64,000 bases of DNA from Parapedobacter koreensis (lineage in GTDB: Bacteria > Bacteroidota > Bacteroidia > Sphingobacteriales > Sphingobacteriaceae). The stretch is from positions 62,001 to 126,000 of the forward strand of contig NZ_FNZR01000007.1 of NCBI RefSeq assembly GCF_900109365.1, written 5' to 3'. Positions 19,218-25,380 of the stretch are shown here, one piece after another. Under the pieces are notes generated by a model, which saw only the letters and a list, made by a program, of their open reading frames with translations, ran no database searches and was not told the origin of the DNA. The stretch's first letter is position 1, and every line of letters starts with the position of its first letter. A program made the translations under genes and the position numbers.

Positions 19218-19679
19218 ATGGATAAAAAAATTTCAGTTTTATATGTGGATGACGAGGAGAATAATTTGATTTCTTTCAAGGCTACATTTCGCCTGAGATA
19301 TAAGGTATATACGGCATTGGGTGGTATCGAAGCCATTCAATTAATTAAAGAACGTCCGATCGATGTGGTCATTACTGACCAACGCATGCCACAAATGACC
19401 GGAGTTGAATTTCTGGAAGAGGTCATCAAGGTCAACCCAAATCCGATGCGAATCCTGCTCACCGGTTATGCGGATATGAGTGCAGTGGTAGATGCAGTCA
19501 ATAAAGGTAAGATTTTCCACTACCTCAGTAAGCCTTGGAGTGAAGAAGAATTGGACGAAACCATCCAACGGGCTTATGAAATTTACTCCGAAAGAGAAAA
19601 AATAAAAGAGTCTTTTTCCAAACTTGAAGTGACCAACGAACAACTCGAATTTTTACTTAGGCAAAAACTTCTTTCTTAG
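19218..19679 (+). CDS. Stand-alone receiver (CheY-like) response regulator
   Basis: The 153-residue protein is a receiver domain (about 5-125) with acidic D11/D12, phospho-acceptor D54 in VVITDQRMPQM and the conserved Lys in LSKPW. A short helical tail (about 128-153, EREKIKESFSKLEVTNEQLE) probably forms a coiled coil. There is no output domain. Its receiver is strikingly like that of the convergent receiver-kinase hybrid (shared DDExNNLISFKATFR, VDAVNKG and KPW), so the two arose by duplication. It is likely a phosphorelay partner of the neighbouring kinases. Confidence 0.9.
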   Translation: MDKKISVLYVDDEENNLISFKATFRLRYKVYTALGGIEAIQLIKERPIDVVITDQRMPQMTGVEFLEEVIKVNPNPMRILLTGYADMSAVVDAVNKGKIFHYLSKPWSEEELDETIQRAYEIYSEREKIKESFSKLEVTNEQLEFLLRQKLLS

Positions 19680-19695
19680 CAGCTATTTTGCAACT

Positions 19696-20781
19696 TTACT
19701 TACTTGGAATAATCGCCGTAAATGTGGTTCCCTGCCCCTCGATAGAAGTCACTTCTATTTCGCCTTGAAGTTTGGCCAACGCGCTTTTGACATTGTAAAG
19801 CCCAAAGCCTGTCCCCTCCGCTTGGTCATTTCCCCTGAAAAATAGCTTAAAAATATCGCCAATATCTTGTTCTGCGATACCAATTCCGGTATCACTTACT
19901 TGTATAGCTGCCTTGTTGTCTTCCACGACAACCGACAATTGCACCAGTTTATAATCATTGTCCCGCTTTTGATATTTAAATGCGTTGGACAGCAAATTAT
20001 GCAAAATAAGTTTCAGCGCTGTTTCGTCGTTTTTAAACACTTCATTTTGGCTGCTGCTAATCTTAAATTCGACATTATTATTCCGTGTATAAATGCTGTA
20101 GAAATTTTGCAGGTATTCGAATAATGCCTCAAAGTTAATTTCGGTAATGGTAAGCTCGCCACGTTTCAACAAGTAATAATCATGGAGGCTATTTATGTAG
20201 GAGTTTAGCTTCAATACCGAGCTTTCCATCAATGCGAGGATTTCGTGGATCCGCTCCACAGAATCAAACTCCAAAGCCAATTTTATCGCCGACAACACCC
20301 CTGTCAATGGATCCCTAAGGTCATGACTCACGCTGTAGGCGAATTTGTCTAGCTCGTCATAAGCTTTCTGGAGTTCTTCATTCCTGATGTCCAGCATCGA
20401 GTTAGCGATATAAAATTTGTTGGCTTCCTCGATTGAAGAAATGATCTCTTCCTCTAGCCATGGCTTCCGCACAAACCTAAAGATATGTCCTTTGTTTACA
20501 GCGTCTACCACAGTTTCCATATCTGCATAGGCGGTCAATAAGATCCGAATGGGTCTTGGAAACTCATGCTTCATTTTGTATAAAAAGTCAATCCCCATTT
20601 CGCCGGGCATCCGTTGGTCGCAAAAGATAATTCGAATGTCTGGGTTTGAACGCAATATTTCACGGGCCTCTTCGGTATTGATTGCCGTGTATATTGGATA
20701 ACGGTACCTAAACGTGGCTTTAAAACTGATTAGGTTGTTGGCCTCGTCATCAATGTAAAGTATTTCCGGGGACTTAAGCAT
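19696..20781 (-). CDS. Receiver-histidine kinase hybrid (soluble)
   Basis: The 361-residue protein has an N-terminal receiver (about 6-125; D11/D12, D55 in IIFCDQRMPG, Lys in VRKPW), a linking coiled coil and a histidine kinase core. H153 lies in SVSHDLRDPLTG, and the ATP-binding part shows LILHNLLSNAFKYQ, VSDTGIGIAEQDI and GTGFGLYNVKSAL. There is no membrane segment. Receiver-first kinases usually have their kinase activity switched by phosphorylation from another kinase, here plausibly the 7TMR-DISM kinase 78 bp upstream in the same direction. Confidence 0.93.
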   Translation of the reverse strand: MLKSPEILYIDDEANNLISFKATFRYRYPIYTAINTEEAREILRSNPDIRIIFCDQRMPGEMGIDFLYKMKHEFPRPIRILLTAYADMETVVDAVNKGHIFRFVRKPWLEEEIISSIEEANKFYIANSMLDIRNEELQKAYDELDKFAYSVSHDLRDPLTGVLSAIKLALEFDSVERIHEILALMESSVLKLNSYINSLHDYYLLKRGELTITEINFEALFEYLQNFYSIYTRNNNVEFKISSSQNEVFKNDETALKLILHNLLSNAFKYQKRDNDYKLVQLSVVVEDNKAAIQVSDTGIGIAEQDIGDIFKLFFRGNDQAEGTGFGLYNVKSALAKLQGEIEVTSIEGQGTTFTAIIPSK

Positions 20782-20859
20782 AAAGCTATGGAAAGTTTAT
20801 ATGGCCAATGAAGCTAAAAAACAAAAATAAACATAAATGGTTTGAATAAAGAAAAACAC

Positions 20860-23013
20860 TTAGTGCAATTGTTGCTTAAGTGGGATTACCAATATAAAAT
20901 TTGTCCCTTCACCCACCTCCGATTCAATCTTTATCTCACCTTGATGCTTCTTAATCGTGTTATATGCAATGGACATACCCAATCCCGTTCCCTCACCAAC
21001 TTCTTTGGTTGTGAAAAAAGGTTCAAATATTTTTTCGCGTACCCCAGCAGGCATCCCTGTCCCATTGTCCTTGATTGATATGTATACGTTCACTGAATCT
21101 ACCTCCGTTTTAATCTCCAAAAGGCCACCCGATTTCCCATCAAATTTCTTATTAATGGCATACAGTGCATTGGTAATAATATTTAAAAATACCTGGTTTA
21201 GCTTTCCAGGATAACATTCAACGAAAGGCAATTCGGCATAATGCTTAGCCACCCGTACCCCTTCCTTAACGACACTGTTTAAAATGACCAGTGTCGATTC
21301 CAATCCTTCATTGATATCCGCAAACTTCAACGAATCTTCATCAACCCTTGAAAAAATGCGTAGGCTTTTTACAATTTCAGCCGTCCTATTTGCTCCTTCA
21401 TGCATGCCTTTTAGCAGAAAATCAATTTCTTCTTTAAGGTAATCAAAATCCAGTTCATCTTTGTGTGCATTAATGTACCGTTCTTTCTCCTCGACAGGGG
21501 AATCCGATAATGCAATTTTTTCAATCTCGTCCAATGTATTCCAAATCATATTGATATCGCGTCTCAACGGCGCCACATTGGAAGTCACGAAATTAATCGG
21601 GTTGTTGATCTCGTGCGCAACCCCAGCGGTGAGTTGGCCAAGAGAGGCCATTTTTTCCGCCTCGACCAATTGTGCCTGTGTCTCCTTCAAATGTGTCAAG
21701 GTCTTTTGCAACGATTCATTTGACTCCTTCAAGGCATATGTGCGCTCCTCGACCCGCTGTTCGAGTATGATGTTCTGCTCGCGTATCAGCTTTTCATTTT
21801 CCTTGGAGATCAATAGCGCTTGCGTCTGTGACTCTTCTTTTTCCTTCCGATATGTATTGATCTTTGCAGCCAAAGCAAAGGACAATAACACAGCTTCAAT
21901 GGCCGAACCTATCTGCACGGATCGCAATGTGAAAAAATTATACGGCAAAATATCGTAATCCTTAAGTACATATACAATAACACTAATCAAAAAAACACAC
22001 CACGCAAAAAGAAAATACTTCGTTTGCTCGTACTTATGCCTGGACAATTGAAAGGCTAATATCACTACTATCATCGAACCGAACCCTGCGACAACATTGA
22101 CAATACGATAGGCAATCAAAGGGAAACCAATAATCAAAATAACAATTGCCAATAAGTAACCAGCCAGAAACAGGTTCAATAACTTATTGAACTTAGGTGA
22201 GTCCTGCGCAGTTTGTAAAAAAGACTTAACAAAAAATATTGCGCCAATCCCGGACATTGCGCCAGAAAATGTAATCATATTGGCAGATAACCAATCGTTC
22301 TCAATCGGCAGAATACGACCGATAAAGCCCATGATAGCAGCTTGGGCTATTGTCACCCAAAAGATATAATTTACATATACGAAATAATGGGTTTCCCTCG
22401 TTGAGAAAAACAAAAAAAGATTATATAAGATCATAGACAGCATGACCCCAATATAGGCGGCCGATAAAATATCGACCGTCGATAATATTTCTACAAGATT
22501 CTTGGGTGTATGGATGGCTATGGGAACCTGTAATTGCTTGTTGCTATATAACTTGAGGTAGCAAGTAGCCGATGCGCCATGCGCCAATGGTACATCAAAC
22601 AAAAAAAATTGGTGCCGATAGGCCCTTGTCCGCAACGGATCGCCCGATTTAATATGCAAACTATCGACTTGTCCATTATTAACCCTATAAAACGTCACCT
22701 CATCGATCGCTGTATGGGACAGGCTGACAATAAGGTTGTCTGCATCCGTATTGTTTTGCAGCACAAACTTCACCCAATTATTTGCACTTCCCGTACCCAA
22801 ATTGGGTACAGACCTATTTATCGGTTTAAATAACGTTGGGTTCGACTGGATATCTCCCAATGTCAGCTGCCTGGTAGAATCCTGAAATATGGAAAGGTAT
22901 TTTCCAATATATTGATTTTGTCCGTTCTCTGTAAACTGAATTGCGCTTTGGGAAAAAACGGAGGGGATAGAACTGATTATTAAGAGGAATGTTGATAATA
23001 AGTTGCTGCACAT
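20860..23013 (-). CDS. 7TMR-DISM sensor histidine kinase
   Basis: I start at the ATG at 23013, 11 bp after the ThiF-like stop, because it begins a signal peptide ([20 protein letters not shown]); the longer frame overlaps ThiF. The 717-residue product has an extracellular 7TMR-DISMED2 beta domain (about 25-165), seven TM helices (about 175-385, from [17 protein letters not shown]), a coiled coil (about 395-455) and a kinase core. The kinase core has [49 protein letters not shown] and [17 protein letters not shown]2 domains resemble carbohydrate-binding folds, so the ligand may be sugar-like or another small molecule. It is probably co-transcribed with the ThiF and GNAT genes. Confidence 0.93.
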
Positions 23014-23024
23014 GGTCGTAACAC

Positions 23025-24125
23025 TTATGCTATATATTGCTCCATATCCATATAATATCTCCCTGACGAAGTAAATTCGTTTAGCAATATGCGCCTGCAT
23101 ACATCCGTTGTGATAGCTCCTCCCAAAACAACAGCAGACGCCAATTGCGGCCAAGATGATATTGTCCGTTTTATTTCCGGAATTGATCTTTTCATTCGTT
23201 CAGATAATTTGTCCGCATCCACAATCTTCATGAGGTATTTTAGTCTTTCAATTTCCGAAAGCTCTCGAAGTTTTTCCGGGGTCAAATCATCCGCTAGCCC
23301 ATGGAGGATCGGCCTATCCGGATTTAGGTCAAACCTTTCGATATCAAGCATACCCCTATCGTTGGTATCCATCACCACAGGGATTCCCAGCTCACGTGCC
23401 TTGAACCTGCTTTCAATTTTCACTTCAAAGCTATCACATACTTCGATAAGCAAATCGAGTTGGCCACCATCGGTAAAAAAGGATGTGTAGTTCGTCGTAT
23501 TCAGGCCGCTAGGGAAGATTGACACCTCTAAGTAGGGATCTATTTCCGCAATCTCTCGCGCGGCAATGATGACCTTGGGTACCGACAAGTTAAATACGCC
23601 GGATCGTATCCTATTCAAGTTGCTCAAATCCAGTTCATCAAAATCTGCAAGACGCAACTCTCCGCAGATTCGCTCCATGGCTATCGTCAACGCGATGGAT
23701 TGCCCTACAGACAACCCAACAATGCCAAGCTTTTTGGTCGCGAGTGTATCACGTTCGGCTTGAGTGATCTTATATTGATTCCGGTTTGTCCTTACCTCAA
23801 TGAATTCTGCCTCATCAAGTAAATGCACCAAGGTTTTTCGCCAGGGGTAATAGACCCAAACACCATATTCTGTCATCGATCTCCCCGCCAGCAACTCGTG
23901 AATATGAAAGTCATACTCCACTTCGGAGAGCTGGCCCGATGGATACCGGCATCGGACAAGTTCCTTCAATTGTCGTTTGATCTCATCACTTTCAAAGACC
24001 ATTCCCCCCCCGCTTCGTAGGCTTTCAAGCTTAACCCGGTCTTCCGTATATTGGGTCCTGAAAAACGATGGCCTGTACGTATGCATCGCATTGGAAACAC
24101 CTGAAGTCTCGTCCTGTTTTGACAT
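23025..24125 (-). CDS. E1/ThiF-like adenylyltransferase, Rv1355c-like, without nitroreductase
   Basis: The start at 24125 gives TGAaATG directly after the GNAT stop, so the two are translationally coupled; the 9-codon longer frame overlaps GNAT. The 366-residue protein has an uncharacterised N-terminal part (about 1-130, with RCRYPSGQL and YGVWVYYPWRKTLVHLL). An E1-like Rossmann domain follows: LGIVGLSVGQSIAL (134-146), LADFDELDLSNLNRI and EVCDSFEVK. The glycine loop is GLSVGQ instead of GxGGxG. No CxxC zinc pair or clear catalytic Cys is visible, so adenylation without thioester transfer is likely. From memory the N-terminal motifs resemble the actinobacterial Rv1355c group, which adds a nitroreductase domain absent here. 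Substrate unknown. Confidence 0.8.
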   Translation of the reverse strand: MSKQDETSGVSNAMHTYRPSFFRTQYTEDRVKLESLRSGGGMVFESDEIKRQLKELVRCRYPSGQLSEVEYDFHIHELLAGRSMTEYGVWVYYPWRKTLVHLLDEAEFIEVRTNRNQYKITQAERDTLATKKLGIVGLSVGQSIALTIAMERICGELRLADFDELDLSNLNRIRSGVFNLSVPKVIIAAREIAEIDPYLEVSIFPSGLNTTNYTSFFTDGGQLDLLIEVCDSFEVKIESRFKARELGIPVVMDTNDRGMLDIERFDLNPDRPILHGLADDLTPEKLRELSEIERLKYLMKIVDADKLSERMKRSIPEIKRTISSWPQLASAVVLGGAITTDVCRRILLNEFTSSGRYYMDMEQYIA

Positions 24126-24126
24126 T

Positions 24127-24939
24127 TCACATGATTTGGATATCATCTTCATTAAAGCTAACCGGATCTTTGGTCGGTTTCTTTAAGTTCATGATGACCT
24201 TTTCTAAATCCCATTTATCCAGGTTTGGTATATTAGTCTGGTAATGGATTTCGATTCGCTTATTCCTTAATTCTTCTATTCGTACGACATCCCTATTTTC
24301 CCGCAGTTGCATTATCGCATTTACATTTTCTTCACTTGCATGTCGCAGGGTATTCAAATCTTTCAGAATCATCGTGGTTGCAAGCAAATCAAGTTTAGGG
24401 TAATAAAATGTACCCTTGTTGCCTATGCTAGTTTCAATCTGGTAACCAACACTTTCCGTCAGCTTAACGGTATAGGGCGCGCAAAGCGCAAACAGTGATG
24501 TAATACCAATCTGTTGAGAAATCGCAATAGCTGCCCTGGTGAGAAAAATACTTCCTACACCATAACCGGCAATTTCGCGGGAGTTCCACAATCCGCACCC
24601 CTCCCCTGTTCCTTGCTGTGCATACTTCCAAACCAAATCGTAAACTGCGGGATCCATTGCCCCCGTTGCTTGCTCAATGGGTAAAGGCTGGCTTCCTCCC
24701 GCTACATGGATACGAGCACCTCCATAGACTTTTTCACCGTCAAGTGATTCAACAATAAGCACGAAAGCCGCCGGATTATACATCCAATCATTCTTGGATG
24801 ACGTCACTTTTGTAACTCCAATATTGGTGAGCACACGCGTATGCCCCTCAATAAAAAGTTCACACGTCTTGGGATCATCAATAGCCCGGAAGGCTCTCAA
24901 CCTCACAACGGGGTGTTCCTTATTTAAAACTAAAGACAT
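24127..24939 (-). CDS. GNAT-fold acyl/acetyltransferase, autoinducer-synthase-like
   Basis: The 270-residue protein shows GNAT features: a beta strand with YGGARIHVAG (R76 conserved-looking), WNSREIAG (118-125), the acyl-CoA loop region GYGVGSIFLTRAAIAIS (125-141) and SLFALCAPYTVKLTESVGY. The order Arg, then W-x-SR, then a helix is reminiscent of LuxI-type acyl-homoserine-lactone synthases, which are also GNAT folds, but identity is too low by eye to assert that. The last 75 residues are extra and charged. It is the first gene of the GNAT-ThiF-7TMR kinase operon. Acyl donor and acceptor unknown. Confidence 0.72.
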   Translation of the reverse strand: MSLVLNKEHPVVRLRAFRAIDDPKTCELFIEGHTRVLTNIGVTKVTSSKNDWMYNPAAFVLIVESLDGEKVYGGARIHVAGGSQPLPIEQATGAMDPAVYDLVWKYAQQGTGEGCGLWNSREIAGYGVGSIFLTRAAIAISQQIGITSLFALCAPYTVKLTESVGYQIETSIGNKGTFYYPKLDLLATTMILKDLNTLRHASEENVNAIMQLRENRDVVRIEELRNKRIEIHYQTNIPNLDKWDLEKVIMNLKKPTKDPVSFNEDDIQIM

Positions 24940-25284: not shown

Positions 25285-25306
25285 GTAACCATAAAAAGTC
25301 TTTGAG

Positions 25307-25380
25307 TAGCGGGGAGCAGGATCGAACTGCCGACCTTAGGGTTATGAATCCTACGCTCTAACCATCTGAGCTACCCCGCC
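25307..25380 (-). tRNA. tRNA with anticodon CAT (Met-type)
   Basis: The reverse-strand cloverleaf has acceptor stem GGCGGGG/CCCCGCT (one G-U pair), D-arm AGCTCAGATGGTTAGAGC, and anticodon loop TTCATAA giving CAT. The T-arm GGTCGGCAGTTCGATCCTGC and discriminator A follow. The Watson-Crick-like first pair excludes the initiator tRNA; elongator Met is most likely, but a lysidine-modified Ile(CAT) cannot be excluded by eye. CCA is not encoded. Confidence 0.9.

Follow-up and report, generated by a model that had tools for sequence, protein, structure and literature searches.

A five-gene cassette lying in a 64,000-nucleotide stretch of the Parapedobacter koreensis genome (contig NZ_FNZR01000007.1, positions 62,001 to 126,000; hereafter the window) is probably a synthase-receptor unit of the autoinducer type. 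In this unit, an N-acyl amino acid would be made by a GNAT-fold acyltransferase, closed into a ring by a ThiF-like enzyme, and sensed by the cassette's own 7TMR-DISM kinase, which is followed by a hybrid receiver-histidine kinase and a stand-alone receiver (Table 1). The synthases are exchanged together with the sensor half of the kinase, as is characteristic of synthase-receptor (pherotype) cassettes such as comQXP.

Joint divergence of the synthases and the sensor half

Taking the window as reference, we compared seven Parapedobacter congeners, leaving out L092, whose kinase half is more distant and whose locus lies in a different setting. The kinase half was 77-91% identical between the window and the congeners, the hybrid kinase 80-92%, the receiver 83-92%, and the flanking tsf and SRPBCC genes 88-97%, whereas identity fell to 20-36% in the DISMED2 domain and 33-54% in the seven-transmembrane (7TM) domain of the sensor, and to 41-71% in GNAT and 49-55% in ThiF. 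Within the genus overall, the conserved parts (kinase half, hybrid, receiver, and flanks) ranged from 73 to 97%, and the sensor domain mostly from 17 to 44%. The identity profile of the kinase stepped at residues 360-400, which is the end of the 7TM domain, and in two congeners whose GNATs resemble each other (86%), the sensors do so as well (62 and 84%). The top fold match of a model of the sensor N-terminal domain was the RetS periplasmic domain. The best controls, 7TMR-DISM kinases encoded in the same genus away from any GNAT, showed 64-87% identity in the sensor versus 80-88% in the rest, and three further histidine kinases from the same species showed 48-86% in their N-terminal parts versus 67-91% in the kinase part. 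The linked sensor is thus under unusual change, because the unlinked 7TMR-DISM kinases of the genus are not hypervariable; generally fast-evolving sensors were rejected as the whole explanation, since those unlinked kinases behave otherwise.

Over 169 pairs whose kinase halves were at least 70% identical, GNAT identity correlated with that of DISMED2 (rho 0.67) and 7TM (rho 0.57) and not with that of the hybrid kinase (rho -0.06), and partial Mantel tests with up to 103 loci pointed in the same direction. The kinase-half tree united Parapedobacter in a single clade (support 94), whereas such a clade was rejected in the GNAT tree (p value of the approximately unbiased test, 2.9e-6) and in the sensor tree (2.5e-4); the pairs and trees in these tests are related and overlapping, not independent, and their p values are indicative only. 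Therefore, the cassette has moved between genera together with the sensor half, and the kinase half has stayed in place.

The sensor also follows the enzyme in the middle slot of the cassette. In 103 distinct cassettes this slot held ThiF alone (50), a ThiF-oxidase fusion (46), or a class I S-adenosylmethionine (SAM) methyltransferase without ThiF (7). On trees of these loci, 12 slot-type changes were needed for the sensor, versus 27 for the kinase half and 25 for GNAT. The seven methyltransferase loci made up one sensor clade with a support of 100, whereas their GNATs were scattered as much as shuffled labels, and their kinase halves were scattered too. At matched GNAT and kinase identity, mean 7TM identity was 54.7% for pairs of the same type and 39.7% for pairs of different types. 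Where the tailoring gene lies next to the kinase, type changes numbered 5 on the sensor tree versus 12 on the GNAT tree.

Layout and spread of the cassette

Loci were collected via similarity to GNAT or ThiF only, and kinase similarity was never used as entry. A same-strand 7TMR-DISM sensor was found within 4.5 kb in 109 of the 115 Bacteroidota loci that had enough downstream sequence to be counted. GNAT homologues occurred in 34 of 60 related genomes; in 33 of these 34 (Sphingobacteriaceae and sampled class members), a PF07695 gene sat beside GNAT, the sole exception being a GNAT on a 4.2-kb contig. Such genomes carry one to a few PF07695 genes, ten in one case, and that of the window encodes just one PF07695 protein. 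These two proportions exclude chance adjacency. The gene order thus recurs in Sphingobacteriaceae and related families, as the earlier note on this DNA, made from the sequence alone, had proposed to check; the scattered homologues without conserved adjacency that it named as a contrary outcome were not seen.

The usual cassette, consisting of a receiver, GNAT and ThiF in either order, the 7TMR-DISM kinase, and the hybrid kinase, is found throughout Bacteroidota, in many families beyond Sphingobacteriaceae. The hybrid is present in most cassettes and the stand-alone receiver beside most of them, and in most congeners tsf, rpsB, and an LptG-like gene border the site. A long Rv1355c-family match was present in 52 of 295 sampled Bacteroidia genomes, about a fifth. 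In the window, the GNAT stop codon TGA is separated by a single base (a) from the ThiF ATG at 24125; the ThiF stop codon TAA (23027-23025) is followed by a gap of 11 bases to the kinase ATG at 23013; and the receiver and hybrid kinase genes converge, their 3' ends tail to tail. Open reading frame positions and Pfam domains bore out the five genes of the earlier note with their coordinates and joints, including the TGAaATG junction, the 11-bp spacing, and the hybrid running in the same direction as the kinase with the lone receiver facing it.

Table 1. Features of the window and of related loci (positions of related loci are given with the locus name)
Feature	Position	Strand	Size, domains, or remark
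GNAT-fold acyltransferase, predicted N-acyl amino acid synthase	24127..24939	(-)	270 aa
ThiF-like adenylating cyclase (predicted), TrzS/Rv1355c type without flavin oxidase half	23025..24125	(-)	366 aa
7TMR-DISM kinase, whole gene	20860..23013	(-)	Pfam: 7TMR-DISMED2, 7TMR-DISM_7TM, HisKA, HATPase_c
Variable sensor half of kinase	21811..23013	(-)	Residues ~1-400: signal peptide region, DISMED2, 7TM
Conserved kinase half	20860..21810	(-)	Residues ~401-717: HisKA and HATPase_c (Pfam)
Hybrid receiver-histidine kinase	19696..20781	(-)	361 aa; Pfam Response_reg, HisKA, HATPase_c
Stand-alone receiver	19218..19679	(+)	153 aa; Pfam Response_reg, 72.4 bits
tRNA-Met gene	25306-25380	(-)	Same strand as cassette, upstream of it
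Methyltransferase loci	L065, L067, L068, L072, L073, L088, L091		Enzyme between GNAT and kinase
Extra receiver-like protein, examples	L067:4266-4688, L077:13163-13588, L080:12205-12606

The three slot methyltransferases tested are UbiE/MenG-like and fell under every NCBIfam cut-off; false matches of the L110 reference ThiF near the hybrid kinases of the methyltransferase loci were disregarded. Several cassettes depart from the usual form. In L153 (7064-11038, Flavobacteriales), two GNAT genes lie on either side of one ThiF-oxidase gene, possibly making a two-signal locus. Many cassettes have a further receiver-like protein of 130-141 amino acids after the hybrid kinase, of which the window has none. 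L140, L174, L100, and L134 carry the GNAT and ThiF pair without a nearby 7TMR-DISM kinase, and in L140 and L174 another gene (621 and 481 amino acids, respectively) occupies the kinase position.

Predicted chemistry and alternative readings

The ThiF protein matched Pfam ThiF with 48.6 bits (cut-off, 28.1) and the NCBIfam Rv1355c family NF005901 with 481.9 bits (cut-off, 476), the latter over profile positions 7-339 of 722 only, which is the ThiF half; the Rv1355c-like E1 assignment made earlier thus holds over that half. The flavin oxidase half is missing from the protein, and no oxidase gene was found in the window cassette. Judged by its sequence, the window ThiF is comparable to the ThiF half alone and not to full TrzS. 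Rv1355c is TrzS, the partner of the acyltransferase TrzA in making N-acyl tryptazolones; it joins a ThiF-like cyclase to a flavin oxidase, N-acyl tryptophan is cyclized to an oxazolone by its ThiF half, the D217A substitution abolishes cyclization, and a cyclized saturated intermediate builds up when the oxidase is deficient (PMC12856293). More broadly, the characterized relatives of Rv1355c proteins make N-acyl oxazolones (PMC12856293, PMC10404671). The window ThiF is 41-42% identical to actinobacterial Rv1355c proteins. C230-D231 is invariant in 27 aligned proteins, two actinobacterial Rv1355c proteins (residue 202 and 212) included, and D231 corresponds in the alignment to the family's invariant Asp, presumably the ATP-contacting D217 of TrzS. 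The modified GLSVGQ loop and the absence of a catalytic Cys, which the earlier note had singled out in this protein, are no oddities of it, being common to the aligned TrzS-type proteins, and the E1 thioester Cys is probably not needed for ring closure.

By sequence alone GNAT had no Pfam and no NCBIfam match. An AlphaFold2 model built with 70 sequences (predicted local distance difference test score, 92) has the GNAT fold, and the closest structures were FeeM (Z 16.7, root mean square deviation 2.7, 179 residues aligned) and BjaI (Z 16.4, 202 aligned). FeeM is an N-acyl amino acid synthase, and BjaI belongs to the acyl-homoserine-lactone synthases. Sequence identity to FeeM and LuxI/BjaI was 8-14%, and some generic GNATs scored within 1 Z unit of them, so the substrate cannot be read from the fold alone. 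The nearest structures reported for TyzA are the same two (PMC10404671). The resemblance to LuxI noted earlier thus stands for the fold. LuxI membership was dropped, because none of 28 GNAT family members matched Pfam Autoind_synth, their best weak matches being Acetyltransf_1 and FeeM. A ribosomal-protein acetyltransferase, the other contrary outcome named in the earlier note, was rejected because RimI-type folds scored lower (Z 13.1) than FeeM and BjaI. A plasmid search with GNAT as query gave no match. Among actinobacterial neighbors of Rv1355c genes, that in Mycolicibacterium (L114) failed as a GNAT homologue and looks unrelated, and for the Streptomyces neighbor GNAT (L117) no profile match was found. 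On a Streptomyces plasmid, L116 (5128-6996) encodes a FeeM-like GNAT domain (weak FeeM match) fused to a TrzS-type ThiF, and a beta-ketoacyl-acyl carrier protein synthase III gene comes next; this fusion in one gene supports the pairing of the two enzymes.

Given their fold, family, and neighbors, the two enzymes would act in sequence. GNAT would move an acyl chain onto the amino group of an amino acid, and the ThiF-like enzyme would adenylate the carboxylate for ATP-driven closure to a saturated 5-oxazolone, without desaturation because the oxidase half is absent. Sister loci with the ThiF-oxidase fusion would be expected to yield an unsaturated oxazolone, and those with the SAM methyltransferase a methylated N-acyl amino acid, perhaps a methyl ester. 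With its carboxylate neutralized by ring closure, or by methylation in the variant, the product would diffuse and be recognized by the DISMED2-7TM sensor of its own cassette, as the co-divergence suggests; the kinase would then hand phosphate to the hybrid kinase and lone receiver in a putative phosphorelay whose order is read from the domains. The earlier proposal that the two enzymes build a signal sensed by the kinase is therefore favored for an acylated signal by the conserved gene order, the fold resembling FeeM and acyl-homoserine-lactone synthases, the TrzS-family ThiF, and the co-divergence of synthases and sensor half; an adenylated product is not favored. Free saturated oxazolone as the ligand is the most exposed inference of this mechanism. 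ThiF might instead activate the N-acyl amino acid so that it couples to another amine, directly or via the oxazolone, the resulting amide or peptide being the signal: saturated oxazolones are reactive acylating agents, and ThiF-type enzymes adenylate carboxylates in several pathways. We consider such a conjugate highly improbable, since oxidase-disabled TrzS forms the cyclized saturated intermediate (PMC12856293), and ring closure is accordingly what would be expected of a ThiF half alone.

Several observations weigh against the synthase-receptor reading. Where GNAT lies between ThiF and the kinase, the ThiF type tracks the sensor and GNAT trees equally (11 changes versus 11; kinase half, 15), so part of the signal may stem from linked exchange of neighbors, and functional matching is not fully distinguishable from physical linkage. 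The kinase was missing in 6 of the 115 loci, no exporter or DNA-binding output gene was found in the cassette, saturated oxazolones are chemically labile, and an hhalign comparison of GNAT with a TrzA candidate, a Rhodococcus neighbor gene, gave E 8e-4 and a probability of 24%. The equal tracking, together with flanks conserved enough for homologous exchange, would fit a hypervariable block that recombines between these flanks with no matching to a ligand; this account is quite unlikely, given that unlinked kinases of the genus are not hypervariable and that the adjacency has lasted across many families. The lack of a DNA-binding output would also fit a product that serves as an antibiotic, surfactant, or membrane lipid, its production being controlled by a kinase that responds to an outside cue without sensing the product, and oxazolones and N-acyl tyrosines are indeed known as lipids whose roles are antimicrobial or unknown (PMC12856293, PMC12479983). 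Such a role is unlikely to be the explanation, because the synthases co-diverge with the sensor half and not with the kinase half or the hybrid, and the sensor tracks the methyltransferase variant across unrelated GNATs.

The synthase-receptor reading might extend to a widespread Bacteroidota quorum-sensing class, in which charge-neutral N-acyl amino acid signals (oxazolones, unsaturated oxazolones, or methylated forms) are read by co-evolving 7TMR-DISM kinases and the types are swapped between species; we regard this wider proposal as evenly balanced. The genes place the cassette, provisionally, within synthase-receptor signaling, and quorum sensing is a putative function.

Relation to known systems

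To our knowledge, few 7TMR-DISM receptors have a known ligand. What oxazolone lipids do physiologically is a major unresolved question according to the authors of the TrzAS study (PMC12856293). Pairing oxazolone-type enzymes with a 7TMR-DISM receptor, the cassette opens both questions to direct experiment in common soil bacteria. Each part comes from a known family. The combination of genes, the forms without an oxidase or with a methyltransferase, and the joint exchange of synthases and sensor were not encountered in the open-access papers searched, in which we found no description of 7TMR-DISM proteins with quorum sensing, acyltransferases, or N-acyl amino acids in Bacteroidetes; likewise, no described system with this gene set was found there, in agreement with the earlier note. 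If the reading is true, Bacteroidota have a chemical communication system of their own whose dialects can be exchanged, a signaling type that the papers searched do not describe.

The closest chemistry, by analogy, would be that of TrzAS (Rv1356c-Rv1355c), TyzACB, and OxzAB, formation of an N-acyl amino acid followed by oxazolone closure; in these systems, as in the window, an N-acyltransferase gene adjoins a ThiF-type cyclase. TrzAS is further approached in that the window ThiF lies above the Rv1355c family cut-off and that sister Bacteroidota loci have the full ThiF-oxidase fusion. Unlike all three, the window ThiF lacks the oxidase half, and a 7TMR-DISM kinase and receivers belong to the cassette; none of the four actinobacterial loci inspected had an annotated 7TMR-DISM kinase. 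The window GNAT resembles LuxI/BjaI and FeeM in predicted fold, with FeeM and BjaI ranking first, but differs from LuxI/BjaI in that no SAM-lactone chemistry is implied, there is no LuxR partner, and a tailoring enzyme takes the place of self-lactonization. The kinase shares the DISMED2, 7TM, HisKA, and HATPase architecture of RetS/LadS-type kinases and differs from them in being linked to its own putative ligand synthases and in having a hypervariable sensor half. As in comQXPA, the competence quorum-sensing system of Bacillus, synthase and receptor genes vary together; those of comQXP are polymorphic together as pherotypes (PMC4408185). Unlike comQXPA, the cassette is known from its genes alone, belongs to a Gram-negative phylum, and would join a predicted small acyl amino acid chemistry, in place of a modified peptide, to a 7TMR-DISM receptor.

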